In this document: positions 11,229-31,190 of the stretch, piece after piece
Numbering within the stretch: position 1 is the first letter of the stretch
Layout of the letters: every line of letters starts with the position of its first letter
Assembly: GCF_006094695.1 (NCBI RefSeq)
Contig: NZ_CP035103.1
Location: forward strand, 682,001-746,000
Reading direction: 5' to 3'
DNA from: Kocuria rosea
GTDB taxonomy: Bacteria > Actinomycetota > Actinomycetes > Actinomycetales > Micrococcaceae
DNA: 64,000 bases
Notes under the pieces: generated by a model
Database searches by the model: none
Told to the model about the DNA's origin: nothing
Seen by the model: the letters and a program-made list of their open reading frames with translations, nothing else
Made by a program: the position numbers and the translations under genes

Positions 11229-11939
11229 TCACGCCCGGAAGAGGGCGCCGAGCCGGTCGGCGCGGGCGGGGTGCCCGGCCAGCCGCAGCCCGTGCCACGC
11301 CGTCACCTGGTTCGCGGTCAGCACGGGCAGCCCGAGCGCCCGCTCGAGCTCCGGCAGGGCGGCCACCGTGTGCAGGGCCGTGTCCGGGACGAGCAGGCAC
11401 TCGGCGCCCCGGACGTCCGCGGCGCGCGCGGCCCCGAGCAGCCACTCGGCGTCGAGGCGCCCGGCGTCCTCGCCGCTGGGGACGCCGTGGGCGGACAGCG
11501 CCGTGACCGTGATGCCGTCCCCGGCCAGGAAGGCCGTGAAGCGGACCGCGACGTCCGCCGGGTAGGTCGCCGCCACCGCGACCCGGCGGGCCCCCAGGTG
11601 CCGGACCGCCGCCGAGAACGCCCAGGACGTCGAGGAGGCGGGAGCGCCGCCGGCCTCGGCCACCCAGCGGGCCTGGACGAGCGCGCCCTCCCGGCCGTGC
11701 ACGAAGCTGCCCGACGTGCAGGCCCACAGCACGGCGTCCGGGGCGTGGGCGCGCGCCCGGCGGGCGGCGGGCTCCAGGTGCCGGCGGGCGCCGAGGTCGA
11801 GCAGCGCCCCGACGTCGTGCGCGGTGCCGCCCTCCCAGGTGTGCACCACGGGGAAGGCGGCGTCCGGCACGAGGCGCTCCAGCACCGCGTAGTCGTCCTC
11901 CGCGCTGTGCCCGGGATAGAGCATGACCACGGTGTGCAC
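11229..11939 (-). CDS. Maleate isomerase / arylmalonate decarboxylase-like paralogue lacking the second cysteine
   Basis: A 236-aa protein starting at GTG 11939 with an upstream GGGAGGGGG. It shares CTSGSFVHGREGA (Cys74) and LTANQVTAWHGL with its convergent neighbour. The position of the second catalytic Cys is Asp186 (LLVPDTALHT). Arylmalonate decarboxylases also work with a single Cys, so this may be a decarboxylase or a one-base isomerase; the EutA protein of ectoine-utilisation clusters belongs to the same branch. It is transcribed divergently from the amidase gene across a shared operator, tying it to that operon. Confidence 0.75.
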   Translation of the reverse strand: MHTVVMLYPGHSAEDDYAVLERLVPDAAFPVVHTWEGGTAHDVGALLDLGARRHLEPAARRARAHAPDAVLWACTSGSFVHGREGALVQARWVAEAGGAPASSTSWAFSAAVRHLGARRVAVAATYPADVAVRFTAFLAGDGITVTALSAHGVPSGEDAGRLDAEWLLGAARAADVRGAECLLVPDTALHTVAALPELERALGLPVLTANQVTAWHGLRLAGHPARADRLGALFRA

Positions 11940-11987
11940 GTCGGGGCGCCCCCTCCCGGGAGGGTTGGACGAGATCGGCGAAGAGCT

Positions 11988-11993
11988 TACAGT
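11988..11993 (+). promoter_or_regulatory. Putative -10 element of the amidase operon
   Basis: TACAGT at 11988-11993 places the transcription start near 12000, inside the palindromic operator at 11996-12009, so a bound protein would block initiation. Confidence 0.45.
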
Positions 11994-11995
11994 TT

Positions 11996-12009
11996 GATTG
12001 TCGACAATC
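11996..12009. promoter_or_regulatory. Palindromic operator, probable GntR-FCD site 1
   Basis: GATTGTCGACAATC is a perfect 14-bp palindrome in the gap between the divergent racemase-like and amidase genes. It contains the GT-N2-AC core typical of GntR-family sites and is identical at 13 of 14 positions to the site at 28981-28994. The GntR-FCD gene 2 kb downstream is the best candidate binder (inference). Confidence 0.65.
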
Positions 12010-12030
12010 GTAGCCGCCGGAGGGGGTCCC

Positions 12031-13476
12031 GTGCAGGACGTGCTGGAGCTGTCCGCGCTGCAGCTGTCGGCGGCCTACGCCGCGGGCGAGCTGTCGCCGG
12101 TCGAGGTCGTCGAGGCGACGCTGCGCGCGATCGAGACCGTGGACCCGGTCCTCAACGCCTTCTGCCTCGTGGAGGGCGACGAGGCGCTGCGCGGCGCCCG
12201 GGACTCGCAGGAGCGCTGGGCCCGCGGGGAGGGGCGCGGACCGCTGGACGGGGTGCCCACCACGGTCAAGGACCTGCTCCTGGCCCGCGGCCGGCCCACC
12301 CTGCGGGGCTCCCTGCTCGTCGACGACGCCGGGCCGTGGGACGAGGACGCCCCGTCGGTGGCCCGGCTCAAGGAGGCCGGCGCGGTGCTCGTCGGCAGGA
12401 CGACCACCCCGGAGTTCGGCTGGAAGGGCGTCACGGACAGCCCCCGCACCGGTGTCACGGTCAACCCCTGGGACACCGCCCGGACCCCCGGCGGCTCCTC
12501 GGGCGGCTCGGCCGCCGCCGTGGCGGCCCGGCTCGGCGCCCTGTCGGTGGGCACCGACGGCGGGGGGTCCGTCCGCATCCCGGCCTCCTTCTGCGGGATC
12601 GTGGGGCTCAAGCCCACCTACGGGCTGGTGCCCCTGTACCCGGCGAGCCCCTTCGGCACGCTGGCCCACGCCGGGCCGCTGACCCGCACCGTGGCCGACG
12701 CCGCCGCGATGCTCGACGCCCTGTCCGGGTACGACCCCCGGGACTGGTCCGCGCTGCCCACCCCCACCGGGAGCTTCCTCGGCCGGCTGGCCGGCCCGGA
12801 GCGGGCGGCCGGCCTGCGGGTGGCCTTCAGCCCGGACCTCGGCTACGGCGCCAACGACCCCGGGGTGGAGCGCTCCGTGCGGGCGGCCGTCGGGGTGCTG
12901 GCCGAGCTCGGCGCGGTGGTCGAGGAGGTGGAGCTGGGCCAGGAGGACCCCGTGTGGGCCTACCACGTGCTCTGGTTCAGCGGCGCGGCGGCCGTGGTGG
13001 CCGGCTGCGGGGCGGGCGCGCTCGAACGGATCGACCCCTCCCTGCGCGCCGCGCTCGAGCGGCACCACGGCTTCACCGCCCAGGACTACCTCGACGCCAC
13101 GGCCTGCCGCATGGCCTGGGGCCGCCGGATGGGCCTGCTGCACGAGCGCTACGACGTCCTCGTGACGCCCACCCTGCCCCGGACGGCCTTCGAGGCCGGC
13201 ACGGACGTCCCGGCCGGGTCCCCGAGCCAGGACTGGACCAGCTGGACGCCCTACTCCTACCCCTTCAACCTCACCCAGCAGCCCGCGGTCACCGTCCCGT
13301 GCGGGCTCTCCGCGGAGGGGCTGCCCGTCGGCCTGCAGATCGTGGGCCCGCGCCACGGCGACCAGCGGGTGCTCGACGCCGCGGCCGCCTACGAGGCCGC
13401 GGCCGGCCACGGCGCCCTCCGCCCACCGGCCGCGGCCCGGTCCTCCGCCGCGGTGCCGGTGCGGAGCACCCCGTGA
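12031..13476 (+). CDS. Amidase signature family enzyme
   Basis: A 481-aa amidase starting at GTG 12031 behind GGAGGGGG; the frame is open from a TTG at 11998, but that start would place the operator inside the gene. The Ser-Ser-Lys triad region is complete: Lys in GVPTTVKDLLL, the Gly/Ser-rich segment TPGGSSGGSAAAVAARL, and the nucleophile stretch GTDGGGSVRIPASFCGIVGLKPTYG. VPCGLSAEGLPVGLQIVGP is the usual C-terminal signature. It hydrolyses an amide to acid and ammonia, or a carbamoyl group; GatA is unlikely because gatB and gatC are absent. Overlaps the DUF3830 gene by 4 bp and is led by the GntR-type operator. Confidence 0.87.
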   Translation: MQDVLELSALQLSAAYAAGELSPVEVVEATLRAIETVDPVLNAFCLVEGDEALRGARDSQERWARGEGRGPLDGVPTTVKDLLLARGRPTLRGSLLVDDAGPWDEDAPSVARLKEAGAVLVGRTTTPEFGWKGVTDSPRTGVTVNPWDTARTPGGSSGGSAAAVAARLGALSVGTDGGGSVRIPASFCGIVGLKPTYGLVPLYPASPFGTLAHAGPLTRTVADAAAMLDALSGYDPRDWSALPTPTGSFLGRLAGPERAAGLRVAFSPDLGYGANDPGVERSVRAAVGVLAELGAVVEEVELGQEDPVWAYHVLWFSGAAAVVAGCGAGALERIDPSLRAALERHHGFTAQDYLDATACRMAWGRRMGLLHERYDVLVTPTLPRTAFEAGTDVPAGSPSQDWTSWTPYSYPFNLTQQPAVTVPCGLSAEGLPVGLQIVGPRHGDQRVLDAAAAYEAAAGHGALRPPAAARSSAAVPVRSTP

Positions 13477-13976
13477 CCCGCTACCTCACCGTCGGCCTGG
13501 AGCGGCGCGCCGTCACCGCCCGCGCCCGGCTCCTGGACCGCGAGGCGCCCCGGACCGCCGAGGCCGTCTGGCGGGCGCTGCCCCTCGCCGGCCAGGTCTT
13601 CCACGGGAAGTTCGCCCGCAACGAGATCTACGCCCTGGTCCCGGCGTTCGCGCCCGAGGAGCCGGGGCCCGAGAACCAGACCGTGACGCCCATCCCGGGG
13701 GACCTCTGCTACTTCAGCTTCGACGGGGTGCTCGAGAACCCCGCCTACGGCTACGACGCCTCCTCCGGGACCTCCGAGCACCGCCTGCTCATCGACCTCG
13801 CCGTCTTCTACGGCCGGAACAACCTGCTGCTCAATGGAGACGTTGGGTGGGTGCCGGGCAACGTCTTCGCCACGATCGAGGACGGCCTCGACGAGCTGGC
13901 CGCCGCGTGCCAGGACGTGTGGATGGGCGGGGCCCGGGGCGAGACCCTGCGGTTCGCCCGCGCGGAGGAGCCCTGA
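13473..13976 (+). CDS. DUF3830 family protein (cyclophilin-like fold)
   Basis: A 167-aa protein starting at GTG 13473, overlapping the amidase by 4 bp. DUF3830 proteins adopt a cyclophilin-like barrel. Conserved stretches are GQVFHGKFARNEIYALVPAF, GDLCYFSFDG and FYGRNNLLLNGDVGWVPGNVFATI. No catalytic function is established. The translational coupling to the amidase and the GntR gene 80 bp downstream suggest that it acts on the same substrate or an intermediate. Confidence 0.75.
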   Translation: MTRYLTVGLERRAVTARARLLDREAPRTAEAVWRALPLAGQVFHGKFARNEIYALVPAFAPEEPGPENQTVTPIPGDLCYFSFDGVLENPAYGYDASSGTSEHRLLIDLAVFYGRNNLLLNGDVGWVPGNVFATIEDGLDELAAACQDVWMGGARGETLRFARAEEP

Positions 13977-13997
13977 GCCGGCCGGCACGGCGCGAAC

Positions 13998-14003
13998 TAG
14001 GAT
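13998..14003 (+). promoter_or_regulatory. Putative -10 element of the GntR gene
   Basis: TAGGAT at 13998-14003 gives a short leader before the ATG at 14057, so the regulator may be transcribed on its own as well as with the amidase operon. Confidence 0.4.
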
Positions 14004-14056
14004 GGATCCTCGGCCCGGGCGCCCCGCCCCGGGCCGGACGAGAGATGGAGAGCAGC

Positions 14057-14719
14057 ATGGCAGCCCGGTCGGCCCTTCCCCCCGTGGTCCAGGAGTCGAC
14101 CCCTGCGCTCATCGCCAGGATCCTGCGGGAGGCCATCGCCGACGGCCGCTTCCCGCCCGGGAGCCAGCTCGTGGAGCAGGAGCTGGCCAGGGAGCTCAAC
14201 GTGAGCCGGGGACCCCTGCGCGAGGCCATGCAGCGGCTCACGCAGGAGGGCCTGCTCGTGGGCCACCGCAACCGCGGGCTGTTCGTGATGGAGCTGACCG
14301 AGGACGCGGTCCGGGACATGTACCTCGCCCGGGAGGCCGTGGAGTGCGCGGCCGTGCGCCGGATCGTGGCCACGGGCACCGGGCCCCGGGCCGCCGAGGC
14401 GCTGGCCGTGCCGCTGGCCGAGATGCGGGCCGCCGCCCCGGAGCCGAACGGGCGCGCGATGTCGGAGGCGGACCTGCACTTCCACGAGCTGCTCGTGGAG
14501 CTCGCCGGCAGCCCCCGGCTGCTCGGCATGCACCGGACGCTGCTCACCCAGATCCGGATGTCCCTGACCGGCATGCAGGGGACCTACGGGTCCGCCGACG
14601 CCCGCCTCCGGGAGCACACCGAGATCGCCGAGGCGCTCGACGCGCAGGACGCGGACCGTGCGGACACGCTGCTGCGGGCCCACATGCAGGACGGACTCGA
14701 GCGGGTCCTGGGCGCCTGA
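14057..14719 (+). CDS. GntR family regulator, FCD (FadR) subfamily
   Basis: A 220-aa repressor-type regulator. The start at 14057 is preferred over the in-frame ATG at 14045 because GGAG at 14047-14050 is correctly spaced. The N-terminal winged HTH reads ARILREAIADGRFPPGSQL, then NVSRGPLREAMQRLTQEGLL. The C-terminal FCD domain has DLHFHELLVE, REHTEIAEAL and LLRAHM, with the Asp and His residues that bind a metal and a carboxylate effector in this family. Its likely sites are the palindromes at 11996 and 28981. The effector would be an organic acid from the amide/dicarboxylate pathway (inference). Confidence 0.88.
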   Translation: MAARSALPPVVQESTPALIARILREAIADGRFPPGSQLVEQELARELNVSRGPLREAMQRLTQEGLLVGHRNRGLFVMELTEDAVRDMYLAREAVECAAVRRIVATGTGPRAAEALAVPLAEMRAAAPEPNGRAMSEADLHFHELLVELAGSPRLLGMHRTLLTQIRMSLTGMQGTYGSADARLREHTEIAEALDAQDADRADTLLRAHMQDGLERVLGA

Positions 14720-14758
14720 CCGGGCTGCGCCCCTGCCCGCGCGCGGGCCGGCGGGGCG

Positions 14759-15496
14759 TCAGGACGCGCCGGGCTCCTCGCCGCGGCCGGGACCGCCGGG
14801 CCGGCGCGGACGCCACATCGGGCGGGGCCAGTCCCTGCGGGGCAGGCGCACGTTCCACTCGCCCGCCCCGGGCAGCCGCCACCCCCGGCGCCGGGCCACC
14901 ACGGTGACCGTGGCGGCGGTGAGGATCGCCGCGGCCATGCCCCAGTTGGGGTAGCCCAGACCGTGCAGCACCGCCATCTCGGCGCTGCCGATCACCGCCC
15001 CGGTCGCGTAGAGGGTGTTGCCGCCGAAGATCATCGGCACCCGCCCCACCGCGATGTCGCGGATCATCCCGCCGCCCACGGCGGTGATCACCCCGATCAT
15101 GACGGCCGGCAGCCAGGTCAGTCCCACGTCGAGGGCCTTGCCCGTGCCCGTCGCCGCCCAGCAGCCCAGGGCCAGGGCGTCGGCCACCACCAGGACGCGG
15201 TTGGTCCACTTCCCCCGGAACTGCAGGAAGAACGCGATGGTGGCGCCGGCGATCGCCGTGATCAGGTACGCGGGGTTCGTCAGGGCCACGGGGAAGCCGA
15301 CCTGCAGGAGGGTGTCGCGCAGCAGTCCCCCGCCGAGCGCGGAGACGACGGCCAGGAACGCGAAGCCGACGGGGTCCATCTTCAGCTGGCGCGCCACCAC
15401 CCCGCCCAGGACGCCGTTGGTCAGCACGCCGAGCAGGTCGACGGCGTCGAAGGCCGCGCTCGGGTCGAGATCCTCCACGGCCACCACGACCACCAC
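14759..15496 (-). CDS. Trimeric intracellular cation (TRIC) channel family protein (former UPF0126)
   Basis: A membrane protein of about 245 aa, convergent with the GntR gene. Two glycine hinge repeats, FLAVVSALGGGLLRDTLL and MIGVITAVGGGMIRDIAVG, each end with the GG-x-x-RD motif that marks bacterial TRIC proteins. Seven membrane segments are expected, followed by a basic Arg/Pro-rich tail. The start is one of four clustered GTG codons (15496, 15493, 15487, 15484); GGAG at 15502-15505 favours the first two. Bacterial homologues conduct monovalent cations, but some were proposed to move small metabolites. Confidence 0.82.
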   Translation of the reverse strand: MVVVVAVEDLDPSAAFDAVDLLGVLTNGVLGGVVARQLKMDPVGFAFLAVVSALGGGLLRDTLLQVGFPVALTNPAYLITAIAGATIAFFLQFRGKWTNRVLVVADALALGCWAATGTGKALDVGLTWLPAVMIGVITAVGGGMIRDIAVGRVPMIFGGNTLYATGAVIGSAEMAVLHGLGYPNWGMAAAILTAATVTVVARRRGWRLPGAGEWNVRLPRRDWPRPMWRPRRPGGPGRGEEPGAS

Positions 15497-15539
15497 CGCC
15501 TCTCCCGCGTCACGCCGACGCCCGAGGGTAGCACCGTCT

Positions 15540-16591: not shown

Positions 16592-16613
16592 GCGGCCCCG
16601 GAGGGCCACGGCG

Positions 16614-17864: not shown

Positions 17865-17876
17865 CCGCGAAGCCTA
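17862..17876 (-). promoter_or_regulatory. Leaderless-type promoter of cls
   Basis: On the minus strand TAGGCT (17876-17871) is followed by TCGCGG and the ATG at 17864. Confidence 0.5.
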
Positions 17877-17906
17877 CCCGGGCGCCGCCGGCGGTGCGGG
17901 GCGGCC

Positions 17907-18380
17907 TCAGACCGTCCGCGCCGCCGCCCGGCCCGCGGCGTCGTCCTCCGCACCGTCCTCCGCGCCGCCACCCGTCGACGACGACGGTGCTGCGGTCGTG
18001 CCGCCGGCGGTCGGCCCGTCCGCGCCCGGGGAGCCGTCGCCCAGGAGCCGGGCCTTCTCGGCCTCGAACTCCCCGGCGGTCAGCGCGCCGCGGTCCCGGA
18101 GGTCCGCCAGGAGCGTCAGCTGGTGGGCACGGCCCCCGTCACCCGGCCCCGGACGCGACCGGGCCGCCGCGAGGCGCTGCTCCTCGGCGGCGCCGACGGA
18201 CCGGGTGAGGAGATAGACCAGCGGTCCCACGAACGGCAGCAGGACGATCACGAGCGCCCACAGCACCTTCGTCCCGCCCCTGATGTCCTCACGGCGGGTG
18301 ATGTCGACCAGCGCCACGCCCCAGAGCAGGGCCAGCGGCGTCCAGATCACCAGCAGCCACAGAAACTCCCAGAAGTTCAT
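17907..18380 (-). CDS. PLDc_N-SHOCT membrane protein
   Basis: A 157-aa protein with two membrane helices at about 6-27 and 38-59, separated by DITRREDIRGGTKVLW, the pattern of the PLDc_N domain (N-terminal membrane domain of cardiolipin synthases). A SHOCT module follows at about 88-113 (LLADLRDRGALTAGEFEAEKARLL), then a low-complexity acidic tail. The ATG overlaps the stop of the LuxR-type gene by 4 bp, so it is made from the regulator's transcript, and cls follows 42 bp downstream. It may anchor or modulate Cls; SHOCT domains are thought to mediate oligomerisation. Confidence 0.8.
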   Translation of the reverse strand: MNFWEFLWLLVIWTPLALLWGVALVDITRREDIRGGTKVLWALVIVLLPFVGPLVYLLTRSVGAAEEQRLAAARSRPGPGDGGRAHQLTLLADLRDRGALTAGEFEAEKARLLGDGSPGADGPTAGGTTAAPSSSTGGGAEDGAEDDAAGRAAARTV

Positions 18381-21196
18381 GAGGTCCTCCCCGGTCCGGC
18401 GGGGCTCTCGGCGTCCCCGGGTTCACCTCCAGGGTCCCGCTCCGCCGCGGGCCGGGCCTCACCCGGCGCGGGTGATCCGGGGGACCCGTCGAGGGTCGTG
18501 TGCTCCAGGAGGCCGAGCGTCCGGGCGCGGAGCACGGCCTCCCGCCGGGTGCTGACGCCGAGCTTGCGGTACAGGGACTTCAGGTGCGCCTTGACGGTGT
18601 TCACCGACAGGTACAGCTCGGCGCCGACCTCCGTGTTGCTCATCATCGTCGGCAGCAGCAGGAGCACGCTGCGCTCGCGGCTGGTCAGCGACTCCAGCAC
18701 GGCCGGTGCGCGGGCGGGGGTGCTGCCGCCGAGGAGGTCCAGGACGGTCCCGACGAACTCCCGGTGCGTGCCCACGGCCCGCCGGTGCAGCTCCAGCAGT
18801 CTCCTGACCCGCTGCCCGTCCACGAGCAGGAAGGGGCGCACGATGTGCTCGGGGGCCGCCACGGCCAGACAACGCCCGAGGCAGGCATGGGCCTGCACCT
18901 CGTCGCGGAGCCGGTCGTGGGCGAGGGCCGCCAGCAGCCAGGCCTCGACGGCGGGTCCTCCGTCCACCTCGGTCTCCCGGAACAGGTGCTGCAGCTGCCG
19001 CAGGCACTGCGCGGGGTCGTTGGTCTCCAGCAGGGCCCGGGCCCGCAGGACGATCCGGTGCCCGTGGGGCCGCCCCCGGGACGGGGCGGTGACGGGCGGG
19101 TCGCCGAGCAGCGCCGGGACGGCGGCGGGCCGTCCCTCCGCCAGGAGGATCTCGGCCCGGACCAGCTCGCACCACTGGGCGAGGAAGTCCGGCATCGCCC
19201 AGTCCTGCGTGCTCCCGCGCAGCCGCCCCAGGAGGTGCCGGGCCGCGGTCACGTCCCCCTTCGAGAGCTCGAGCCGCACGCCCACCAGGGCCAGGCCGGT
19301 CTCCGCGTAGCGGTCCGGCACCCGGCCCACGCACGCCCTCCCGCGGTCGAGGGCGGCGGCGCAGGCCCCGACGTCGTGCTCCAGGAGCCGGATCACCGCC
19401 TCCGCCAGGAACGCCGTGGCCGTCAGCGGGAGGAAGGTCCAGCCGGACTCCTCCGCGACGGCCAGTGCGACGTCCACCTCGCGGCGAGCCTCCCGCAGCC
19501 GGCCGCGCATCGCCTTCAGGGCGGCGAGGTTCCCGTGCAGGTGCAGCGCGAGCACCGGGGTCATGGCGGAGCGGTCCGCGAGGGCCGCGACCGTCCGGGT
19601 GAGGGTGGTCTCGGCGGCGCCGAGCTCACCGGTCCACAGGAGGCCCATGGCCAGCACCGTGGCGGTGGCGATGCGGTACACGGGGGCGGCCGGGAGCTCC
19701 TCGGGGAGCACCTCGTCCAGCTGCCGGATCGCGGTCCTGGAACGGCGGACCTGCTCGGTGGCGTCCGCATGCATCCACGCCAGAACGGCGTCGAGCGTGG
19801 CGAGCACCACCGTGGTCAGCCGGGCGTCCTGCGCGGACAGCCGGGGCAGCAGCTCGCGGGCGCGCGCGGCGTGGGAGGCGACCCCCACCGGGTCGTAGGC
19901 GGCGTAGCGCACGGCGGCGATCGCGGCGGCCACCTCGCAGTCCCGGGCGACCAGCTCGTCCGGCACGCCGCTGAGCAGCGCGACGACGGCCGCGCGGTCC
20001 GTGCCCAGGACCTCCGCGCCGGCGCTGCGCAGGACGAACCGGGCCAGCGCCGGCCAGTCCTGCGCCGCGCGCAGGTGCCGGGCCGCTTCGAGCAGCTCCC
20101 TGTGGGCCGCGAACCAGCCCGCGGCGCGCCGGTGCAGGACGGCCTGCCGCGCGGGGTCCTCCGCCCTGAGCCGGTGGCGCAGCAGGTCGGCGAAGAGGTG
20201 GTGGTAGCGGTACCACTTCCGCCGGTCGTCGAGGGCGACCACGAAGAGGTTCTCGTGCTCGAGCCTGGCCAGCAGCCGCTGGCCGTCGCTGCGGCCCGTC
20301 AGGGTGTCGGCGAGCTCGCCCGAGACGCGCCGGACCACGCAGGTGTCGAGCAGGAACCGGGTCAGCGCGGGCTCCTGCTGCGCGAGGACCTCCTCGGTGA
20401 AGTAGTCGGCGGGACCGCGCTGGTCCCCGGCCAGTCCGCGGACGGCCGCGCCCACGTCCTCGGCGCCCTCGAGGGCCAGCGCGGCGAGACGGAGCCCTGC
20501 CGCCCAGCCCTCCGTCCTCGTCAGCAGCACGGCCAGCTGCGGCGGTGTGGGGGCGACCTCTTGGGCGGCGAGGAGCTCCAGGGCCTCCGCGGGGTCGAAG
20601 CGGAGGTCGTCGGCGCGGAGCTCCGTCAGCCGGCCGCTCAGCCGCAGCCGCTGCAGCGGCAGGTCCGGGTCGCTGCGGGTGGCGATCACCGGGCGGAGGG
20701 CGCCGAGGTCCTTCCGGGCCGCCGCGGCCAGGGTCTCCTCGGCGGGCGAGCCCGCGATGCGGTGCAGGTCGTCGAGCACGAGCACCCGCGGCGCCGGGAG
20801 CAGCCCGCAGGCCTCCACCAGGAGGTCGACGAAGCGGGGGTCGTGGGTCGGCGGGGCGCGCAGACCGGCCAGGGCGCTCCCGGGGCCGACGTCGGACGCG
20901 GCCTGCAGGGACGCCAGGACGCGGGCCCAGAGCTGCTGGGGGTCCCGGTCCTCGGGCTCCACCGACAGCCAGGCCACGGGCGGGCGGCGCGGTGCGGCCC
21001 ACCCCGACAGGAGCAGCGTCTTGCCCGCCCCCGCCGGGGCGGAGACGACCACGGTGCCGGCGGCCACCCCGGCGTCGAGCATCCGCTCGAGACGCGGGCG
21101 GCGCACCGTCCTGGCGGGCACCCGGGGGATCGAGGAGCGCGTGGCGGACAGCGGTTCCGGCGGCGGTGGACGAGCCCCGCTCCGTTCGCCCGTCAT
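18377..21196 (-). CDS. MalT-like LuxR family regulator with AAA/STAND ATPase (LAL type)
   Basis: A 939-aa signal-transduction ATPase and transcription factor. Walker A APAGAGKT is at residues 53-60 and Walker B VLVLDDLH at about 138-145. Helical repeats of MalT type fill the middle, beginning with YRYHHLFADLLRHRL, and the C-terminal LuxR HTH at about 835-895 reads LTSRERSVLLLLPTMMSNTEVG and LSVNTVKAHLKSLYRKLGV. Length and order match the LAL family. It probably activates its targets when an inducer and ATP are bound. A 27-bp inverted repeat just upstream is the likely site of action; a related half-length copy lies in its own 3' end. The C-terminal tail after the HTH is long and Pro/Gly-rich. 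Confidence 0.9.
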   Translation of the reverse strand: MTGERSGARPPPPEPLSATRSSIPRVPARTVRRPRLERMLDAGVAAGTVVVSAPAGAGKTLLLSGWAAPRRPPVAWLSVEPEDRDPQQLWARVLASLQAASDVGPGSALAGLRAPPTHDPRFVDLLVEACGLLPAPRVLVLDDLHRIAGSPAEETLAAAARKDLGALRPVIATRSDPDLPLQRLRLSGRLTELRADDLRFDPAEALELLAAQEVAPTPPQLAVLLTRTEGWAAGLRLAALALEGAEDVGAAVRGLAGDQRGPADYFTEEVLAQQEPALTRFLLDTCVVRRVSGELADTLTGRSDGQRLLARLEHENLFVVALDDRRKWYRYHHLFADLLRHRLRAEDPARQAVLHRRAAGWFAAHRELLEAARHLRAAQDWPALARFVLRSAGAEVLGTDRAAVVALLSGVPDELVARDCEVAAAIAAVRYAAYDPVGVASHAARARELLPRLSAQDARLTTVVLATLDAVLAWMHADATEQVRRSRTAIRQLDEVLPEELPAAPVYRIATATVLAMGLLWTGELGAAETTLTRTVAALADRSAMTPVLALHLHGNLAALKAMRGRLREARREVDVALAVAEESGWTFLPLTATAFLAEAVIRLLEHDVGACAAALDRGRACVGRVPDRYAETGLALVGVRLELSKGDVTAARHLLGRLRGSTQDWAMPDFLAQWCELVRAEILLAEGRPAAVPALLGDPPVTAPSRGRPHGHRIVLRARALLETNDPAQCLRQLQHLFRETEVDGGPAVEAWLLAALAHDRLRDEVQAHACLGRCLAVAAPEHIVRPFLLVDGQRVRRLLELHRRAVGTHREFVGTVLDLLGGSTPARAPAVLESLTSRERSVLLLLPTMMSNTEVGAELYLSVNTVKAHLKSLYRKLGVSTRREAVLRARTLGLLEHTTLDGSPGSPAPGEARPAAERDPGGEPGDAESPAGPGRTS
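18459..18475. promoter_or_regulatory. Second copy of the TCACCC-N5-GGGTGA motif inside the LuxR gene
   Basis: TCACCC-GGCGC-GGGTGA at 18459-18475 repeats the core and the 5-bp spacing of the promoter-region palindrome at 21250-21276. It lies about 80 bp upstream (on the minus strand) of the PLDc_N-SHOCT start, so it could control internal transcription. It may be chance. Confidence 0.3.
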
Positions 21197-23507: not shown

Positions 23508-23510
23508 GGC

Positions 23511-23546
23511 CGGCGGCCGGGCGGGGCGCGGTCGTCCCGGCCGCCG
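23511..23546. terminator. Bidirectional hairpin between the hydrolase and aminotransferase genes
   Basis: CGGCGGCCGGG at 23511-23521 pairs perfectly with CCCGGCCGCCG at 23536-23546 around a 14-nt loop, between two convergent stops. Confidence 0.6.
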
Positions 23547-23566
23547 GGTCCCGGGCCGGCCCGGTG

Positions 23567-24862
23567 CTACCGCCCCGTCAGCTCCGCCCGGGCGAGGTCC
23601 AGGGCCCGGGCCAGGCGCTGCACGCCCACCTCCGTGCGCTCCGGGCTCGTGGAGGCGAAGCACAGCCGGAAGGCGTCCTGGAACCGGCCCGAGGGGGACA
23701 GCGCGGGACCGGGGATGAAGGCGACCCCCTCGGCGAGGGCGATCTCGAACAGCCGGGGCGTGGCCACGGCCGCGTCGTCGCCCTGCAGGGTCACCCACAG
23801 GAAGAAGCCGCCCTCGGGGTCGGTCGTGACCACCCGGGAGCCCAGGTGACGGGCGATCGAGGCGTCCATGGCCTGTTTGCGCCGCCGGTACTCCGTGCGC
23901 AGGCCGGCCAGGTGGTCGTCGTAGCCGCCCTGGCGCACGAACCGCTCCACGATGTGCTGACCGGGGACGTTCGTGCAGGTGTCCATGGCCTGCTTGCCGG
24001 CGATCAGCAGCCTCCGCAGCCGCGGGTCGGCGTCCACCCACCCCACGCGCAGCCCCGGGGCGAGGACCTTGGAGAAGGTCCGCACCGAGAACACGAGCGG
24101 GTCGTCCGGGCTGATCTCGCGGAAGCCGGGGACGTCCTCGCCGGCGAAGCGCAGGCCCCCGTACGGGTCGTCGTCGATGATCACGGCCCCCCACCGGTGC
24201 GCGAGGTCCAGGAGGCGCCGCCGGCGCGGCTCGCTCAGCGTGGTGCCGGAGGGGTTCTGGAAGTTCGGGATCGTGTAGACCGCCCGCGGGGTGCGCCCCG
24301 TCTCGGCGACCAGCGTCTCGAGCGCGTCCACGTCCATGCCGTCCTCGTCGACCGGGACCTCGAGCAGGTCCGCGCCGTAGCTGAGGGCGGTGCCGGAGCC
24401 GTTCGTGTAGGTGGGGGACTCGACCACCACGAGGTCGCCCGGGTCCACGAAGAGCTTGAACGCGAGGTCCAGGCCCTGCATGCCGCCGGAGGTGATGACG
24501 AGCCGTTCGGGCCGGGTCGGCTCCGGGGTCGTGGAGTGGTGGGCCACGACGGTCTCGAGCAGACCGGGCTCGCCCTCCGTGGCCCCGTACGTGAACGAGC
24601 CGGCGCCGAGGACCTCGGCGGCGATCCGCCGGAACTGCTCCGTGGGGATCACCTCGGCGGCCGGGGCGCCCATCGCGAAGCGGACGATGTCGTGGGTCTG
24701 GGCGGCGAGCAGGGACGTCGAGGAGTCGATGACCGACCCCACGAGCCCGTCCGCCCGGCGGGCCAGGGGCAGCAGGCCCCGGGCGGGGTCGCCGCCCACC
24801 CCCGCGGTGGGGGCGGTGCGCAGGCCGGCCACGGTGGTGAGGGATGCGGCGGTGGTGGTCAT
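23567..24862 (-). CDS. PLP-dependent class I/II aminotransferase (2-aminoadipate aminotransferase-like)
   Basis: A 431-aa fold-type I enzyme with RBS AGGAAG. FTYGATEGEPGLLE, TSGGMQGLDLAFKLFVDPGD, ESPTYTNG, YTIPNFQNPSGTTLS and DDDPYGGLRF are the PLP pocket; Lys in VRTFSKVLAPGLRVGWV binds PLP. The pattern is that of LysN/MocR-type aminotransferase domains without a regulatory HTH. The start is four bases downstream of the M24 gene stop, so it is the last gene of the operon that includes the semialdehyde dehydrogenase. The amino donor is unknown. Confidence 0.85.
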   Translation of the reverse strand: MTTTAASLTTVAGLRTAPTAGVGGDPARGLLPLARRADGLVGSVIDSSTSLLAAQTHDIVRFAMGAPAAEVIPTEQFRRIAAEVLGAGSFTYGATEGEPGLLETVVAHHSTTPEPTRPERLVITSGGMQGLDLAFKLFVDPGDLVVVESPTYTNGSGTALSYGADLLEVPVDEDGMDVDALETLVAETGRTPRAVYTIPNFQNPSGTTLSEPRRRRLLDLAHRWGAVIIDDDPYGGLRFAGEDVPGFREISPDDPLVFSVRTFSKVLAPGLRVGWVDADPRLRRLLIAGKQAMDTCTNVPGQHIVERFVRQGGYDDHLAGLRTEYRRRKQAMDASIARHLGSRVVTTDPEGGFFLWVTLQGDDAAVATPRLFEIALAEGVAFIPGPALSPSGRFQDAFRLCFASTSPERTEVGVQRLARALDLARAELTGR

Positions 24863-24866
24863 GGGA

Positions 24867-26081
24867 TCACTTCCTGATGAGGGCTCGGGGGAAGGAGGTC
24901 AGGGCCTCCGTCCCGGTGGCGGTGATGCGGATCGACTCGGAGACCTCGTAGCCGTACCCGGTCATCCACATGCCGCAGATGAGGTGGAACGTCATGTTCT
25001 CGGCGAGCACGCTCTCGTCCTCCGAGCGGATGCTGATGGTGCGCTCGCCCCAGTCGGGGGGATAGCCGATGCCCACGGAGTAGCCGAGCCGGCTGGGCTT
25101 CTCGAGCCCGAACTCCGCGAGCGCCCAGTTCCAGGTGCTCGCGAGCTCGCGCACCGGGACGCCCGCGGCGGTGACGTCGAGCACGGCCTCGAGCCCCGAG
25201 GCCACGGCCTCCTCGAGCAGGCCCAGCTCGGCCGTGGGCGGGCCGAGCATCACCGTGCGGGCCAGCGGCACGTGGTAGCGCCGGTGCACCCCGGCGAGCT
25301 CCACCACCACGGCGTCGCCCTCCCGCAGCACCCGGTCCGACCACGTGAGGTGCGGGGTGTCGGCGGAGGCCCCGGTGGGGAGCATCGGGACCATGGCCGG
25401 GAAGTCCCCCCACGCGTCGTCGACCCCCTCGACCTGGGCCCGGGCCACCTGCGCCGCGACGAGGTGCTGCGGGACCCCGGGCTCGATCGTGTCGATCGCG
25501 GCCTGCATCGCGGCCGTCGTGACGCGGGCGGCCGTGCGCAGGTACTGGATCTCCGCCGGGGACTTCACGGCGCGCACCCAGTTCACGAGGTCGAAGGCGT
25601 CCACGAGGGTCCACTCCGGGAGGGCGTTGACGAGCGAGCGGTAGCCCTTGGGGGAGAAGAAGTGGGAGTCCATCTCCAGACCCACGCACCCCCGGGCGGC
25701 GGGGGCGACCCGGCCGCGGCGGCGCAGGGCGAAGGCCACCCAGTCGAAGGGGTGCAGGTGCGGGCGGTGCACGTAGCGCTCGGGGTAGCCGACGATCTGC
25801 CCGGGGTCCAGCCGGGCCGTGCGGAACGCGCCGTTGGCGTCCATCTCCCGCAGGAACAGCAGCAGCTCGCCCTCCGCCGGCACGAACAGCAGCTGCGGGG
25901 TGTAGAAGGACCAGGCGTCGTAGCCCGTCAGGTAGAACAGGTTCGCGGGGTCGGTCACCAGCAGCGCATCCAGGCCCTGCTCCGCCATCCGCCCCCGCAC
26001 CGCGCGCAGCCGGGCGGCGTACTCCGCGTCGGGGAACAGCGCGGGGCGGACGTCCGGACCGGCCGCGGTGTCATCGGCCAC
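24867..26081 (-). CDS. M24 family creatinase/ectoine-hydrolase-like protein (DoeA/EutD-like)
   Basis: A 404-aa pita-bread-fold protein starting at GTG 26081, overlapping the dehydrogenase gene by 11 bp. The N-terminal domain reads LLVTDPANLFYLTGYDAWSF; the C-terminal domain has VVVELAGVHRRYHVPLART, YSVGIGYPPDWGERT and ENMTFHLICGMWM. The two metal-binding Asp residues of true M24 aminopeptidases are replaced (VELAG and HVPLART), as in metal-independent creatinase and in ectoine hydrolase, so a hydrolase of a small cyclic or guanidino compound is more likely than a peptidase. Ectoine hydrolase is my best guess; the partner deacetylase (DoeB) is not in the window. Aminotransferase and semialdehyde dehydrogenase neighbours fit such a pathway. 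Confidence 0.7.
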   Translation of the reverse strand: MADDTAAGPDVRPALFPDAEYAARLRAVRGRMAEQGLDALLVTDPANLFYLTGYDAWSFYTPQLLFVPAEGELLLFLREMDANGAFRTARLDPGQIVGYPERYVHRPHLHPFDWVAFALRRRGRVAPAARGCVGLEMDSHFFSPKGYRSLVNALPEWTLVDAFDLVNWVRAVKSPAEIQYLRTAARVTTAAMQAAIDTIEPGVPQHLVAAQVARAQVEGVDDAWGDFPAMVPMLPTGASADTPHLTWSDRVLREGDAVVVELAGVHRRYHVPLARTVMLGPPTAELGLLEEAVASGLEAVLDVTAAGVPVRELASTWNWALAEFGLEKPSRLGYSVGIGYPPDWGERTISIRSEDESVLAENMTFHLICGMWMTGYGYEVSESIRITATGTEALTSFPRALIRK

Positions 26082-27588
26082 GGGGCACCGCCGTGTACTT
26101 CGTCTCGAGGAACTCCTCGATCCCCGTGCGGCCGCCCTCGCGCCCGAGGCCCGAGGCCTTGACCCCGCCGAAGGGCGCCGCCGGGTTGGAGACCAGCCCC
26201 GTGTTGATCCCGACCATGCCGACCTCGAGGGCCTCGCTGACGCGGAAGCTGCGGTCCACGTCGCGGGTGAAGAGGTAGCCCACGAGCCCCCACGGGGTGT
26301 CGTTGGCCCACCCGAGCACCTGCTCCTCGGAGTCGAACGCCACCACGGGCGCCACCGGCCCGAAGATCTCCTGGGACATGAGCGCGGCCTCGGAGCTGAC
26401 CCCGGACAGCACGGTGGGGGCGTAGAACCAGCCCCGGCCCCCGGCCCGGCGTCCCCCGCACAGCACGGACGCCCCCCGGGCCAGGGCGTCGTCCACGAGC
26501 TCCTCCACCTTGGCCAGGGCCTTCTCCTCGACGAGGGGGCCCACCTGGGTGCCCTCGGCCACGCCGTGGCCCACGGTGAGGGAGCCCATGCGCTCCGCGA
26601 GGCGTGCGGAGAACTCCCCGGCCACGGAGCGGTGGACGAACAGGCGGTTGGCCGCCGTGCAGGCCTCGCCCATGTTGCGCATCTTCGCGGTCATCGCGGC
26701 CTCGACCGCCACGTCGAGGTCGGCGTCCTCGAACACGATGAAGGGGGCGTTGCCGCCCAGCTCCATGGACGAGCGCATGACGTGCTGGGCCGCCTGCTCG
26801 AGCAGCCGCACCCCCACCTCGGTGGAGCCGGTGAAGGAGATCTTGCGGGCGATCCCCGAGGACATCCAGGGCCCGACCACCGAGGAGGCCCTCGAGGTGC
26901 ACACGACGTTGAGCACCCCCGCCGGCAGTCCGGCCTCCACCAGGACGTCCACGAGGGCCAGGGAGGACAGCGGCGTGAGGTTCGCGGGCTTGAAGACCAT
27001 CGTGCAGCCGGCCGCGACGGCCGGGCCGATCTTGCGGGTGCCCATGGCCAACGGGAAGTTCCACGGGGTGACCAGCACGCAGGGTCCCACCGGCTCCTTG
27101 GAGACCAGGATCCGGGTCCTCCCGTCCCCCGAGAGGGTCATGTCCCCGCCGATCCGCACGGCCTCCTCGGAGAACCAGCGGAAGAACTCGGCGGCGTAGG
27201 CGACCTCCCCGCGGGCCTCGGCGAGGGGCTTGCCCATCTCCGTGGACATCACCAGCGCGAGCTCGTCCCGGCGGGCCATGATGAGGTCGTGGGAGCGGCG
27301 CAGGATCTCGCCGCGCTCGCGGGGCGCGGTCCGGGCCCAGTCCTTCTGGGCCCGCCCCGCGGCCTCGATCGCCCGGACGGCGTCCTCCGGGCCGCCGTCC
27401 GCCACCGTGGCGACGACCTCCTCGGTGGCCGGGTCCACCACGTCGAAGCGGCGCCCGGAGGCGGCCTCGGTCCACTCGCCGTCGACGAAGACCCCGGTGC
27501 TGACCCCGGCGACGGCCTCCCGGGACCGGCGCAGGACGTCCTCGGAGGCGGTGATGGGGGCGGTGGTGGGGGCGGCGGAGTCGGTCAC
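26071..27588 (-). CDS. gabD: NAD(P)-dependent succinate-semialdehyde dehydrogenase family protein
   Basis: A 505-aa aldehyde dehydrogenase starting at GTG 27588 behind GGAAGGA. VTPWNFPLAM and FKPANLTPLSS form the cofactor site, FTGSTEVG the Rossmann turn, MELGGNAPFIVF holds the catalytic Glu and GEACTAANR the catalytic Cys; QEIFGPVAPV and PFGGVKASGLGREGG are typical of succinate-semialdehyde dehydrogenases. With the upstream class III aminotransferase it could convert GABA to succinate, or, if the M24 protein is an ectoine hydrolase, act as DoeC on aspartate semialdehyde. The specificity is inferred from family and context. Confidence 0.85.
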   Translation of the reverse strand: MTDSAAPTTAPITASEDVLRRSREAVAGVSTGVFVDGEWTEAASGRRFDVVDPATEEVVATVADGGPEDAVRAIEAAGRAQKDWARTAPRERGEILRRSHDLIMARRDELALVMSTEMGKPLAEARGEVAYAAEFFRWFSEEAVRIGGDMTLSGDGRTRILVSKEPVGPCVLVTPWNFPLAMGTRKIGPAVAAGCTMVFKPANLTPLSSLALVDVLVEAGLPAGVLNVVCTSRASSVVGPWMSSGIARKISFTGSTEVGVRLLEQAAQHVMRSSMELGGNAPFIVFEDADLDVAVEAAMTAKMRNMGEACTAANRLFVHRSVAGEFSARLAERMGSLTVGHGVAEGTQVGPLVEEKALAKVEELVDDALARGASVLCGGRRAGGRGWFYAPTVLSGVSSEAALMSQEIFGPVAPVVAFDSEEQVLGWANDTPWGLVGYLFTRDVDRSFRVSEALEVGMVGINTGLVSNPAAPFGGVKASGLGREGGRTGIEEFLETKYTAVPRGR

Positions 27589-27682
27589 GGGGTGTCCTTC
27601 CGGTCGGGATCGGCGCGGGGTGCGGCGCGGGGTCCGAGGCGGGATCCGGTGCGTCCGGGCGCGGTGCGGGACGGGACGGGGC

Positions 27683-28954
27683 TCATGCGGTCGCCGCCGC
27701 CCCGGCGAGGACCTCGGCCAGGGCGGCCTCGAAGCGCTCGAGGCCCGTGCGGATCTCCTGCTCGGAGACCACCAGTGCGGGGATCAGCCGGACCACGTTG
27801 CCGGCCGGCCCGCAGGTCAGGGTGAGCAGCCCGTGGCCGGTGGTGGCCTGCTGCACGGCGAGCGCGGCGGCGGCGTCCGGGGAGCCGTCCTCCTGCGCGA
27901 ACTCGACGCCCTGCATCAGCCCGCGGCCGCGGACGTCGCTGATCCCGGGGTAGCGCTGCTGCAGGGGCCGCAGCCCCGCCTGCAGCTGGTCCCCGCGGAC
28001 CCGCGCGTTCTCCACCAGGTGCTCGTCGCGGACCACGTCCAGGGTGGCGCAGGCCGCCGCGGCGGCCACGGCGTTGCCGCCGTAGGTCCCGCCCTGCGAG
28101 CCGGGCCAGCCCCGCTCCATCAGCGCGGTCGGCGCCGCGATCGCGGAGATCGGGAAGCCCGAGGCGAGGCCCTTCGCGGTGATCAGCACGTCCGGTACCA
28201 CGTCCGCGAACTGGTGGCCCCAGAACCGCCCGGTCCGCCCCACCCCGGCCTGCACCTCGTCCAGCACCAGCAGGATCCCGTGCCGGTCCGCCCGCTCCCG
28301 CAGCCCCTCGAGGAAGGCCGGCGGGGTGGGCAGGTAGCCGCCGTCGCCGAGCACGGGCTCGATCAGGAGGGCCGCGGTGTCCTCGGGCGCCGTCCGGGTC
28401 ACCAGGAGGTAGTCCAGCTCCCGCAGGGCGAAGTCGACCGCCGTCCGCTCGTCCCACCCGTAGCGGTGGGCGTAGGGGAACGGGGCCATGTGCACCCCGC
28501 CCATGAGCGGGGAGAAGCCGGCGGAGAACCGGGTGCCCGCTGTGGTGAGGGTCGCCGCGGCCACCGTGCGGCCGTGGAAGCCGCCCTGGAAGACCACCAC
28601 GTTGGGCCGGCCCGTGGCCATCCGGGCCAGCCGCACCGCGGCCTCGACCGCCTCGGAGCCGGAGTTGGCGTAGAACACGGAGTCCAGGCCCGGCGGCAGG
28701 ACCTCGCCCAGCTTCTCGGTGAGCTCGAGCAGCGGGGGGTGCAGCACGGTCGTGTACTGGGCGTGGATGACCCGGCCGACCTGCTCGCGGGCCGCCTCGA
28801 CCACCCGGGGGTGGCAGTGGCCCGTGCTGGTCACCCCGATCCCGGTGGTGAAGTCCAGGTACTCGCGCCCGTCCGTGCCGGAGATCCAGCAGCCCCGGGC
28901 GGAGTCGACGACGACCGGGGTCGCCTGCTTCAGGAGCGGACTCAGTGAGGTCAT
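27683..28954 (-). CDS. gabT: Class III aminotransferase (GABA/diaminobutyrate/omega-amino acid type)
   Basis: A 423-aa PLP enzyme. YLDFTTGIGVTSTGHCHP, YANSGSEAVEAAVRLAR, GGFHGRT, LLVLDEVQAGVGRTG and ITAKGLASGFP (PLP lysine) are all in place; GGTYGGNAVAAAAA closes the site. Family members use GABA, acetylornithine, diaminobutyrate or beta-alanine with 2-oxoglutarate or pyruvate. It leads the operon with the semialdehyde dehydrogenase 94 bp downstream. Its -35 element lies inside the GntR-type palindrome at 28981-28994. The alanine dehydrogenase nearby would regenerate pyruvate if pyruvate is the amino acceptor. Confidence 0.85.
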   Translation of the reverse strand: MTSLSPLLKQATPVVVDSARGCWISGTDGREYLDFTTGIGVTSTGHCHPRVVEAAREQVGRVIHAQYTTVLHPPLLELTEKLGEVLPPGLDSVFYANSGSEAVEAAVRLARMATGRPNVVVFQGGFHGRTVAAATLTTAGTRFSAGFSPLMGGVHMAPFPYAHRYGWDERTAVDFALRELDYLLVTRTAPEDTAALLIEPVLGDGGYLPTPPAFLEGLRERADRHGILLVLDEVQAGVGRTGRFWGHQFADVVPDVLITAKGLASGFPISAIAAPTALMERGWPGSQGGTYGGNAVAAAAACATLDVVRDEHLVENARVRGDQLQAGLRPLQQRYPGISDVRGRGLMQGVEFAQEDGSPDAAAALAVQQATTGHGLLTLTCGPAGNVVRLIPALVVSEQEIRTGLERFEAALAEVLAGAAATA

Positions 28955-28959
28955 GGCCC

Positions 28960-28989
28960 ATCATGGGAACAGCCCGTGCAGATTGTCAA
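28960..28989 (-). promoter_or_regulatory. Promoter of the class III aminotransferase operon
   Basis: On the minus strand TTGACA (28989-28984) and CATGAT (28965-28960) are separated by 18 bp, with the ATG five bases further. The -35 is contained in the palindromic operator. Confidence 0.45.
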
Positions 28990-28994
28990 CAATC
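28981..28994. promoter_or_regulatory. Palindromic operator, probable GntR-FCD site 2
   Basis: GATTGTCAACAATC has perfect 6-bp arms (GATTGT/ACAATC) and differs from site 1 at 11996 by one central base. It lies between divergent aminotransferase and hydroxyacid dehydrogenase genes and overlaps the predicted -35 elements of both. Confidence 0.65.
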
Positions 28995-29006
28995 GGACCG
29001 CCCCCG

Positions 29007-29019
29007 TAGGGTGGCCCCA
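29007..29019 (+). promoter_or_regulatory. Leaderless-type promoter of the D-2-hydroxyacid dehydrogenase gene
   Basis: TAGGGT at 29007-29012 is followed by GGCCCC and the ATG at 29019. TTGTCA at 28983-28988, 18 bp upstream, is a possible -35 inside the operator. Confidence 0.55.
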
Positions 29020-30020
29020 TGAGCACCGTGCGCGAGCCGCCCCGTGTCGTCGTGCTGACCGCCGAGGGCACGCCACCGCCCGGCAACGAGGAGGCCCTCC
29101 GGGCCCTCGCCGACGTCACCGTGGTGACGCGCGAGGGCCTCGCCGACGCCCTCGCGGGGACCGGCGGGCGGCGCCCGGCGGAGGTGCTGCTGCTGTGGGA
29201 CTTCTTCTCGGACGCGCTCGCCGGCGCGTGGGACGCCGCGACGGGGCTGCGCTGGGTGCACGTCGCGGCCGCCGGGGTGGACGCCGTGCTGTTCCCGGCG
29301 CTGCGCTCCTCGGCGGTGCTGGTGACCAACGCGCACGGCGTCTTCGACCGGCCCATCGCCGAGTTCGTCCTCGCCGCGGTCCTGGCCCAGGACAAGCAGC
29401 TGCACCGGAGCGCGCGGCTGCAGCGCGAGCACCGGTGGGTGCACCGCGAGCTGCGGCGCACCCAGGGCTCCACGGCCCTCGTCGTGGGCACCGGGGGGAT
29501 CGGCCGCGCCACCGCCAGGCTGCTGCGGGCGGTGGGGGTGGAGGTCCGCGGCGCCGGGCGCACGGCGCGGACGGAGGACCCGGACTTCGGGACCGTCGTC
29601 CCCGCCGCCGAGCTGGCCGAGCACGCCGGGTGGGCGGACCACGTGGTGCTGGCCGCCCCGCTGACCGGGCGGACGCACGGGATCGTGGGCCCCCGGGTGC
29701 TCGCGGCGATGTCCCCGCACGCCCACCTCGTGAACGTGGGCCGGGGCGCGCTGGTGGACGAGGACGCGCTGCTGGAGGCCCTCCGGGCGGGGCGTCCGGC
29801 CGCCGCGACCCTGGACGTCTTCGACACGGAGCCCCTTCCGCGGGACCACCCCTTCTGGGCGATGGACAATGTGCACGTGTCCGCGCACATGTGCGGGGAC
29901 GTGGAGGGGTGGCGGGACGAGCTCGCCGCCCAGTTCGAGGACAACCTCCGGCGCTGGACGGCCGGGGAGCGGCTGGTCGACCAGGTGGACAAGAACGCCG
30001 GCTACGTCCGCTCCCGGTGA
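29019..30020 (+). CDS. D-2-hydroxyacid dehydrogenase family protein
   Basis: A 333-aa NAD(P)-dependent oxidoreductase of the D-isomer-specific 2-hydroxyacid dehydrogenase family. The cofactor fingerprint is VVGTGGIGRATARLL; the catalytic set is Arg in HLVNVGRGALVDEDALL, Glu in TLDVFDTEPLP and His in NVHVSAHMCGD. It reduces a 2-oxoacid or oxidises a D-2-hydroxyacid; the substrate is not evident. Sharing the operator with the aminotransferase suggests that it removes or recycles an oxoacid in the same pathway. Confidence 0.85.
   Translation: MSTVREPPRVVVLTAEGTPPPGNEEALRALADVTVVTREGLADALAGTGGRRPAEVLLLWDFFSDALAGAWDAATGLRWVHVAAAGVDAVLFPALRSSAVLVTNAHGVFDRPIAEFVLAAVLAQDKQLHRSARLQREHRWVHRELRRTQGSTALVVGTGGIGRATARLLRAVGVEVRGAGRTARTEDPDFGTVVPAAELAEHAGWADHVVLAAPLTGRTHGIVGPRVLAAMSPHAHLVNVGRGALVDEDALLEALRAGRPAAATLDVFDTEPLPRDHPFWAMDNVHVSAHMCGDVEGWRDELAAQFEDNLRRWTAGERLVDQVDKNAGYVRSR

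Positions 30021-30095: not shown

Positions 30096-31190
<1,095 letters not shown>

Follow-up and report, generated by a model that had tools for sequence, protein, structure and literature searches.

Ectoines are widespread protectants against salt stress and are also nutrients, and a 2018 review restricts their consumers to Proteobacteria (PMC5924519). The same review assigns EutA and EutB to the hydroxyectoine branch in proteobacteria and places a hydroxyacid dehydrogenase gene in some ectoine clusters (PMC5924519), and EutR regulons are reported for Proteobacteria in a further paper (PMC5320631). The closest described systems are the EnuR-controlled ehu/ueh-eutABCDE-asnC-ssd-atf clusters of Sinorhizobium meliloti and Ruegeria pomeroyi, and the doeA, doeB, doeC and doeD genes of Halomonas elongata with DoeX. 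A 2026 paper adds putative Gram-positive ectoine clusters, including pucR-eutBCD-atf with abgB-thrA-adh in Bacillales; its Gram-positive and archaeal clusters, found with EutD and EutB, are called provisional by the authors (PMC13188858). In the current study, we examined a window of 64,000 nucleotides from the actinobacterium Kocuria rosea (contig NZ_CP035103.1, positions 682,001 to 746,000), in which two divergently transcribed gene groups (divergons) are each built around one of two near-identical palindromes. We conclude that both divergons form one catabolic regulon which would most likely take up and degrade ectoine and/or 5-hydroxyectoine, a reading to which, on the strength of sequence comparison, we give a probability of about 0.7.

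Results

Two divergons share a predicted operator that probably marks one regulon

In the left divergon the gene of Amd1, a EutA/arylmalonate-decarboxylase-like protein on the minus strand, is separated by operator 1 from the genes of an amidase, a DUF3830 protein and a GntR-FCD regulator (12031-14719, plus strand). In the right divergon a class III aminotransferase (AT3), a succinate-semialdehyde-dehydrogenase-like enzyme (SSADH), an M24 hydrolase and a class I/II aminotransferase (AT1) are encoded from 28954 down to 23567 on the minus strand, and operator 2 separates them from the genes of a D-2-hydroxyacid dehydrogenase (HADH) and an alanine dehydrogenase (AlaDH) on the plus strand (29019-31190). 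Operator 1, GATTGTCGACAATC (11996-12009), and operator 2, GATTGTCAACAATC (28981-28994), neither assigned a strand, differ at one base of 14, and the coordinates given for them in the initial annotation proved right. With up to three mismatches allowed, the window yields four strand-matches, all at these operators; since 15 of 100 shuffles also reach four, chance could account for the likeness at this tolerance and the window alone is weak evidence for the pair. In the one-contig genome of 3,946,651 bases, a search for up to two mismatches did not reveal many scattered copies: the two operators are the sole sites with one mismatch or none, all remaining sites carrying two.

Across 27 genomes of the genus, 38 perfect ATTGTNNACAAT sites were found, of which 31 fall in the nine genomes with an orthologue of the GntR-FCD regulator (E<=1e-35) and seven in the other 18 (Mann-Whitney P 8e-6, kinship uncorrected). 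Thirty of the 31 sit in the gene cluster (the 31st, in G009, was left out of inspection). Genomes G003 and G021 (in its C4 copy) resemble the window and carry both of its operators, operator 1 again lying 5' of the amidase gene, and in G003 the divergon halves are approximately 2 kb apart. A single cluster with several sites unites the regulon genes in G006 and in G021 (C32 copy); G021 (L062-L065) therefore holds both a window-type and a compact, type-2 version. Five congeners (G001, G002, G007, G009 and G018; L053-L055, L058-L060) carry a smaller cluster with three sites each, composed, among the genes tested for, of M24, AT1, an M20 deacylase, an MFS transporter, GntR, SSADH, a FAD-oxidase/4Fe-4S protein (FADox) and HADH, with AT3 in four of the five (G018 being without it); no amidase, DUF3830 or Amd gene was found in the stretches fetched from them. 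This smaller set provides a transporter and a candidate for each ectoine step.

On a wider scale, 120 loci (L053-L172) were reduced by removal of nine duplicates to 111 non-redundant actinobacterial loci, which contain 219 perfect sites, 205 of them in a zone that reaches from 350 bp ahead of a regulon gene to 60 bp into it. At least one perfect site is present in 98 of the 111, while 13 are without one. For all 120 loci the figures are 234 sites and 219 in the zone. The zone fraction is conditional, as loci were chosen for holding a site, DUF3830 or M24, and half-site-permuted palindromes and random positions served as its controls: among 19 permuted palindromes on the 120 loci, one gave two matches, one gave a single match and 17 gave none, and 14.6% of random positions lay in the zone.

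The sites might nevertheless be operators of unrelated GntR proteins, or alike by chance, leaving the divergons independently regulated. The TTGT..ACAA core is common to GntR-FCD operators, so that similar sites may serve different regulators, and six of the 18 congeneric genomes without this GntR still hold one or two sites; the single such site that was inspected, in G020 (L061), had no regulon gene that we could find. The genome-wide uniqueness of both sites speaks against this explanation, which is already contradicted by the joined clusters of relatives, the co-occurrence with one orthologous GntR and the 205 of 219 sites in the zone, and we consider it very improbable. The proposal of the initial annotation, that a single regulon under the GntR-FCD protein comprises both divergons, is strongly supported by the directly observed distribution of sites and gene content, and the regulon appears as secure as comparison alone permits.

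Regulator and promoters

The GntR-FCD protein (14045-14719, plus strand), the proposed repressor of the regulon, matches PF00392 (64.2 bits, cut-off 27) and PF07729 (82.3 bits, cut-off 24.3). Among 11 aligned regulators, the window's included, its VSRGPLREAMQRL region is unchanged in nine, and the FCD residues D143, H147, H191 and H213 are invariant; they presumably match the one Asp and three His residues through which this subfamily binds a metal or ligand. The palindromic operator adjoins the regulated genes and has a GT..AC core, the operator core of the GntR-FCD subfamily.

Operator 1 ends 21 bp before the GTG start of the amidase gene. The initial annotation had the sites overlapping predicted -35 elements or a start point. 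Operator 2 does overlap a -35 element: the minus strand reads TTGACA (probably the -35 element of the AT3 promoter), an 18-bp spacer and CATGAT; at operator 1 no sigma-70-like promoter was found. The AT3 ATG lies 5 bases past the CATGAT hexamer, and the AT3 transcript of the window is therefore probably leaderless. TTGACA occurs inside 155 of 218 sites (one of the 219, near a locus end, was left out of base counts). Taking as -10-like a hexamer 3' of TTGACA with four of six matches or better, including A2 and T6, we observed 5, 10 and 17 hexamers at spacings of 16, 17 and 18, representing 32 distinct sites of the 155, and one site with such a hexamer on the opposite strand at these spacings. 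All 23 AT3 genes of at least 74% identity with a site in front have one 28-30 bp away.

Several of these counts tell against promoter overlap as a general feature: 123 of the 155 TTGACA sites lack a -10-like hexamer at spacing 16-18, and other spacings reach six matches on the TTGACA strand and, at spacings such as 14, up to nine on the opposite one, so that the test speaks for part of the sites only. In 12 AT3 genes of at most 69% identity the distance to the site varies from 16 to 150 bp and never falls at 28-30. The GntR-FCD protein would most likely repress both divergons by binding GATTGTNNACAATC, and a repressor covering the -35 box offers the simplest mechanism: TTGACA resembles that box in part of the sites, operator 2 included, and bound repressor would there exclude RNA polymerase. 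The location of TTGACA and the -10 spacing are seen directly; DNA binding and repression are inferred. Release of the repressor would come from a metabolite formed early in the pathway, an acetylated diaminobutyrate if the analogy with EnuR holds.

Genes pointing to ectoine

The M24 hydrolase (24867-26081, minus strand) is of the ectoine hydrolase (DoeA) kind. Its best solved relatives are the DoeA structures 6twj/6twk with 375 bits, the next best reaching 77, and motifs such as PPDWGERT are kept in the alignment with DoeA. At 94 of 115 positions that are near-invariant among 56 M24 proteins (among them the window's, a distant paralogue in L154 and four whose loci lack a perfect site), the residue is identical in S. 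meliloti DoeA. The closest named relatives are Kocuria proteins (91% identity in Kocuria sp. CPCC 205300). In relatives, AT1 and an M20 deacylase of the ArgE/DapE type (218.4 over 217.6) come after the M24 gene, and a ProP-like symporter (414.7 of 544) belongs to their set.

The ectoine hypothesis was recorded before an Ehu transporter was found. A search for further site-bearing genes then led to a solute-binding protein that is EhuB by NCBIfam, followed by EhuC, EhuD and EhuA. In L075, the single locus with all four subunits fully scored, the models TIGR02995, 03004, 03003 and 03005 give EhuB 264.5 (cut-off 190.9), EhuC 258.1 (196.95), EhuD 259.9 (205.2) and EhuA 374 (345.4), and EhuB is also over cut-off in L116, G034 and G181. 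In Arthrobacter and Cryobacterium the regulon palindrome stands 5' of an EhuBCDA-type ectoine transporter. EhuBCDA of at least 58% identity is present in 10 of the 111 loci, eight of them with a perfect site approximately 90-120 bp before ehuB; of the remaining two, L126 has ehuB cut by the locus end and L150 has no site directly upstream. The stretches of G034 and G181 add two further EhuBCDA sets with a site, and the count leaves out L080 (EhuB 30% identical, no site) and the duplicate L113. Ehu-like loci of G003, G085, G059, G171 and G115 were not counted as members, as the stretches fetched show no perfect site and their EhuB is 29-31% identical; in that of G059, a GntR gene (36% identity) is accompanied by a site with one mismatch.

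In Citricoccus (G084), ectB and the ectoine synthase gene ectC, both over cut-off, adjoin the catabolic cluster (L195:3890-5700), for which reason the making and eating of ectoine may be wired together there. Ectoine synthase occurs in six of the 19 cluster genomes overall.

The wider distribution of the DUF3830 gene set

DUF3830 is present in 30 of 197 genomes of the family, and other genera of the family show a comparable regulon picture; the G176 stretch contains M24-AT1-M20, HADH, AT3-FADox-SSADH, MFS and GntR with sites, and no DUF3830 gene was found in it. A profile search of genome contigs with a DUF3830 alignment gave at least 576 loci, of which the best 80, all actinobacterial, were taken. 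Matches above 40% identity in these 80 comprise DUF3830 (80), Amd2 (72), Amd1 (60), HADH (52), M24 (37), AT1 (36), M20 (35), SSADH (31), MFS (25), FADox (23) and AT3 (22), with the amidase found in 46 by a type-2 query and in 18 by the window query, and GntR in 37 and 11, respectively; all are lower bounds because the flanks stop at 10 kb. Genes near DUF3830 in L067 (a DNA polymerase, an S1 protein and others) look unrelated and were set aside. DUF3830 had no match in a plasmid collection, which therefore offers no annotated parallel, and its predicted model, with a mean pLDDT of 59, is too poor for a fold search.

Further genes were noted behind the palindrome in a few loci. A RidA/YjgF-type gene follows it in L123 (6238-6711), L124 and L130, which may point to a reactive intermediate of the imine or enamine kind, and an enolase-superfamily (muconate-cycloisomerase-like) gene follows it in L100 (18956-20134), divergent to GntR.

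Weighing the substrate

The initial annotation had read the gene set as an amide/dicarboxylate regulon, naming ectoine merely among several compounds to screen. That substrate is not supported: because the M24 protein is nearest DoeA and the co-regulated transporter is Ehu-type, amide/dicarboxylate, maleate or nicotinate degradation and the GABA, nylon-oligomer, pantothenate and creatine routes, all weighed from the enzyme list, were dropped in favour of ectoine/hydroxyectoine. Its observation is confirmed and its interpretation partly supported.

The regulon could be real and its substrate another amidine, amide or diamino-acid derivative resembling ectoine, with the Ehu-type transporter and the DoeA-like enzyme recruited to it. 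Consistent with this, the commonest partners of DUF3830 in the best 80 loci are the amidase, HADH and the two EutA-like proteins, which are not known ectoine enzymes, and in L079 (3830-16356) an acetamidase/formamidase and an ABC transporter of the oligopeptide type accompany DUF3830, the amidase and both EutA-like genes. The complete set of four Ehu subunits, each exceeding its cut-off and preceded by a regulon operator, ectBC beside the cluster in Citricoccus and the 94 near-invariant M24 positions kept in DoeA all argue the other way, and we judge a different substrate unlikely.

Other observations weigh against ectoine as well. The DoeA model TIGR02993 scores 411.6 on the window M24 protein, missing its cut-off of 613, and the cut-offs for DoeB/EutE (TIGR02994; one sub-threshold match, 239 bits, in G085) and EutB (TIGR02991) are reached in none of the 19 cluster genomes, sub-threshold EutB matches being found in 19 of 19 cluster genomes and 14 of 14 control genomes. 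As the DoeA, DoeB and EutB models were tested and fell short, we do not class the regulon with the standard Doe/Eut systems. EhuB is over cut-off in only six of the 19 cluster genomes, and it is over cut-off in G003, G085 and G059 although the stretches fetched from them hold no perfect site, so that the model is not wholly specific. Just one genome has ect genes next to the cluster, ectoine synthase appearing in no other region of L053-L196, and the best match of AT3 in the S. meliloti ectoine region is 28% identical. In four genomes (L079-L082) no site accompanies DUF3830, the amidase and the two Amd genes, and ectoine itself does not explain the roles of DUF3830, the amidase and the two EutA-like proteins. 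Directly 3' of DUF3830 in Segeticoccus (L132:9726-10643) lies a gene whose product is EutB-like, with 36% identity to the S. meliloti protein, the sole one in 120 loci.

In the window genome itself, neither EhuB nor an M20 orthologue was found at E<=1e-20, the best MFS protein is 42% identical, none exceeding that value, ectoine synthase is absent and the FADox gene is reduced to a remnant. The system of this strain might accordingly be decaying and no longer support growth on the substrate, with the regulon functional in relatives. Decay is a serious prospect for this strain, if the less probable one: the other genes are open frames, each operator is intact, and M20 and MFS are likewise missing near the cluster in G003 and in G021 (C4 copy), for which reason the smaller window set may be a working variant. 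The ectoine reading of the regulon as a whole is retained, and use of ectoine/hydroxyectoine by a variant route is, from comparative evidence, the likely function.

Genes of the window

Domain searches bore out the genes described in the initial annotation, from the one-Cys racemase-like protein, amidase, DUF3830 and GntR-FCD to the transaminases, SSADH, M24, HADH and AlaDH; Amd2 and an oxidase remnant were missing from it. Amd1 (11229-11939, minus strand; 236 aa, one catalytic-type Cys) matches PF17645 with 82.4 bits and was also aligned. Amd2 (10453-11217, plus strand; 254 aa, two Cys), a second EutA/arylmalonate-decarboxylase-like protein whose G003 orthologue in L056 matches PF17645, is encoded by a gene that converges on that of Amd1. 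In all five sequences aligned for each, Amd1 keeps the first Cys alone and Amd2 both. The signature amidase (12031-13476, plus strand) exceeds the NCBIfam PRK06169 cut-off (689.4 against 506) and its gene overlaps at GTGA with that of the DUF3830 protein (13473-13976, plus strand; 167 aa, PF12903 209 bits; most searches took 13482-13976 as the span), which is related to the uncharacterized structure 3kop.

On the minus strand of the right divergon lie AT3, of the GABA-aminotransferase kind (27683-28954), SSADH (26071-27588; TIGR01780 578.7, under the cut-off of 646) and AT1, which is LysN/kynurenine-aminotransferase-like (23567-24862). The in-frame, YdiJ-like FADox remnant of 33 codons (27585-27686, minus strand) sits between AT3 and SSADH, at a place where G003 and the C4 copy of G021 have a complete counterpart, approximately 3 kb of the gene being missing in the window; a FADox paralogue is present at 843-846 kb of the genome. 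On the plus strand are HADH (29019-30020; PF02826, 162 bits) and AlaDH (30060-31190; TIGR00518 465.8, cut-off 391.9), a possible member of the HADH operon.

The genes between the divergons include those of a glycine-transporter-type protein, a phospholipase-D-type pair, an alpha/beta hydrolase and a LuxR-type regulator of 939 aa (18377-21196). These genes, the LuxR-type one among them, are also in the C4 copy of G021, and in G003 the glycine-transporter gene alone is recognised between the halves; none was found above 40% identity in the 80 wider DUF3830 loci.

Discussion

The substrate and every reaction of the route proposed here are inferred. The M24 DoeA-like enzyme would open the ectoine ring; in relatives the ArgE-like M20 deacylase would remove acetate, a step for which the window strain must rely on something else. 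AT3 and the SSADH-like enzyme would convert diaminobutyrate to aspartate, which AT1 would carry onward, and the EutA-like pair, the amidase and DUF3830, all of them absent from some members, would, perhaps together with the hydroxyacid enzymes, deal with hydroxylated or other side products. Hydroxyectoine is a natural suggestion because EutA and EutB belong to the hydroxyectoine branch in proteobacteria, EutB being missing here. Going further, actinobacteria may use a 5-hydroxyectoine/ectoine route of their own under a GntR-FCD regulon, in which the M20 deacylase replaces DoeB, and EutB/EutC give way to the two EutA-like proteins, DUF3830, the amidase, the YdiJ-like oxidase, the LysN-like aminotransferase and the D-2-hydroxyacid dehydrogenase, for instance via a 3-hydroxyaspartate-type intermediate. 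We put this forward tentatively, at slightly less than even odds; if true, DUF3830 would catalyse a new reaction, either by itself or as a subunit together with the EutA-like pair.

The regulon gives a first context for DUF3830 and a testable list of genes, defined by their operator, across many genera of actinobacteria. Its repressor and operator are candidates for building an ectoine-responsive switch in Gram-positive bacteria. The initial annotation had called it undescribed, and no description of it was found in the literature searched, to which the figures of PMC13188858 did not belong. That search likewise gave no mention of DUF3830, of GntR-FCD regulators in an ectoine context or of an arylmalonate decarboxylase and amidase gene cluster in Arthrobacter, and the part of PMC9608346 available held nothing relevant to the regulon.

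Among known families, the arylmalonate decarboxylase/EutA/maleate isomerase family shares with the present proteins a Pfam Amdase match over cut-off (Amd1 and two Amd2 of relatives), although the EutA and decarboxylase equivalog cut-offs are not reached. The Doe system of H. elongata has in common with the route above the proposed order of hydrolase, deacetylase, aminotransferase and dehydrogenase leading to aspartate, but it relies on the AsnC/Lrp-type DoeX and the DoeB deacetylase, and DUF3830, the amidase and the EutA-like pair are not named in the portion of its description at hand. The clusters of PMC13188858, compared by text, share a EutD-type hydrolase, an aminotransferase, an amidohydrolase (abgB), the lack of EutE and Gram-positive hosts including Actinomycetota; those of Bacillales have EutB/C, whereas one EutB match, 36% identical (L132), is seen in the 120 loci here, and the actinomycete clusters of its Fig. 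7 may overlap this regulon. With the EnuR-controlled clusters of S. meliloti and R. pomeroyi the regulon shares a DoeA/EutD-type ring hydrolase, a EutA-like protein, a semialdehyde dehydrogenase, a class III aminotransferase, a regulator of the GntR superfamily and, in some members, EhuABCD. It differs from them in its FCD-type regulator, theirs being the MocR-type EnuR (MocR and AsnC genes lay outside our genome-wide searches), and in that EutE/DoeB and EutB are never over cut-off in the 19 genomes (EutC was left out), relatives having an M20 deacylase; added here are the two EutA-like proteins, the amidase, DUF3830, the LysN-like aminotransferase, the hydroxyacid dehydrogenase and the FAD-oxidase.

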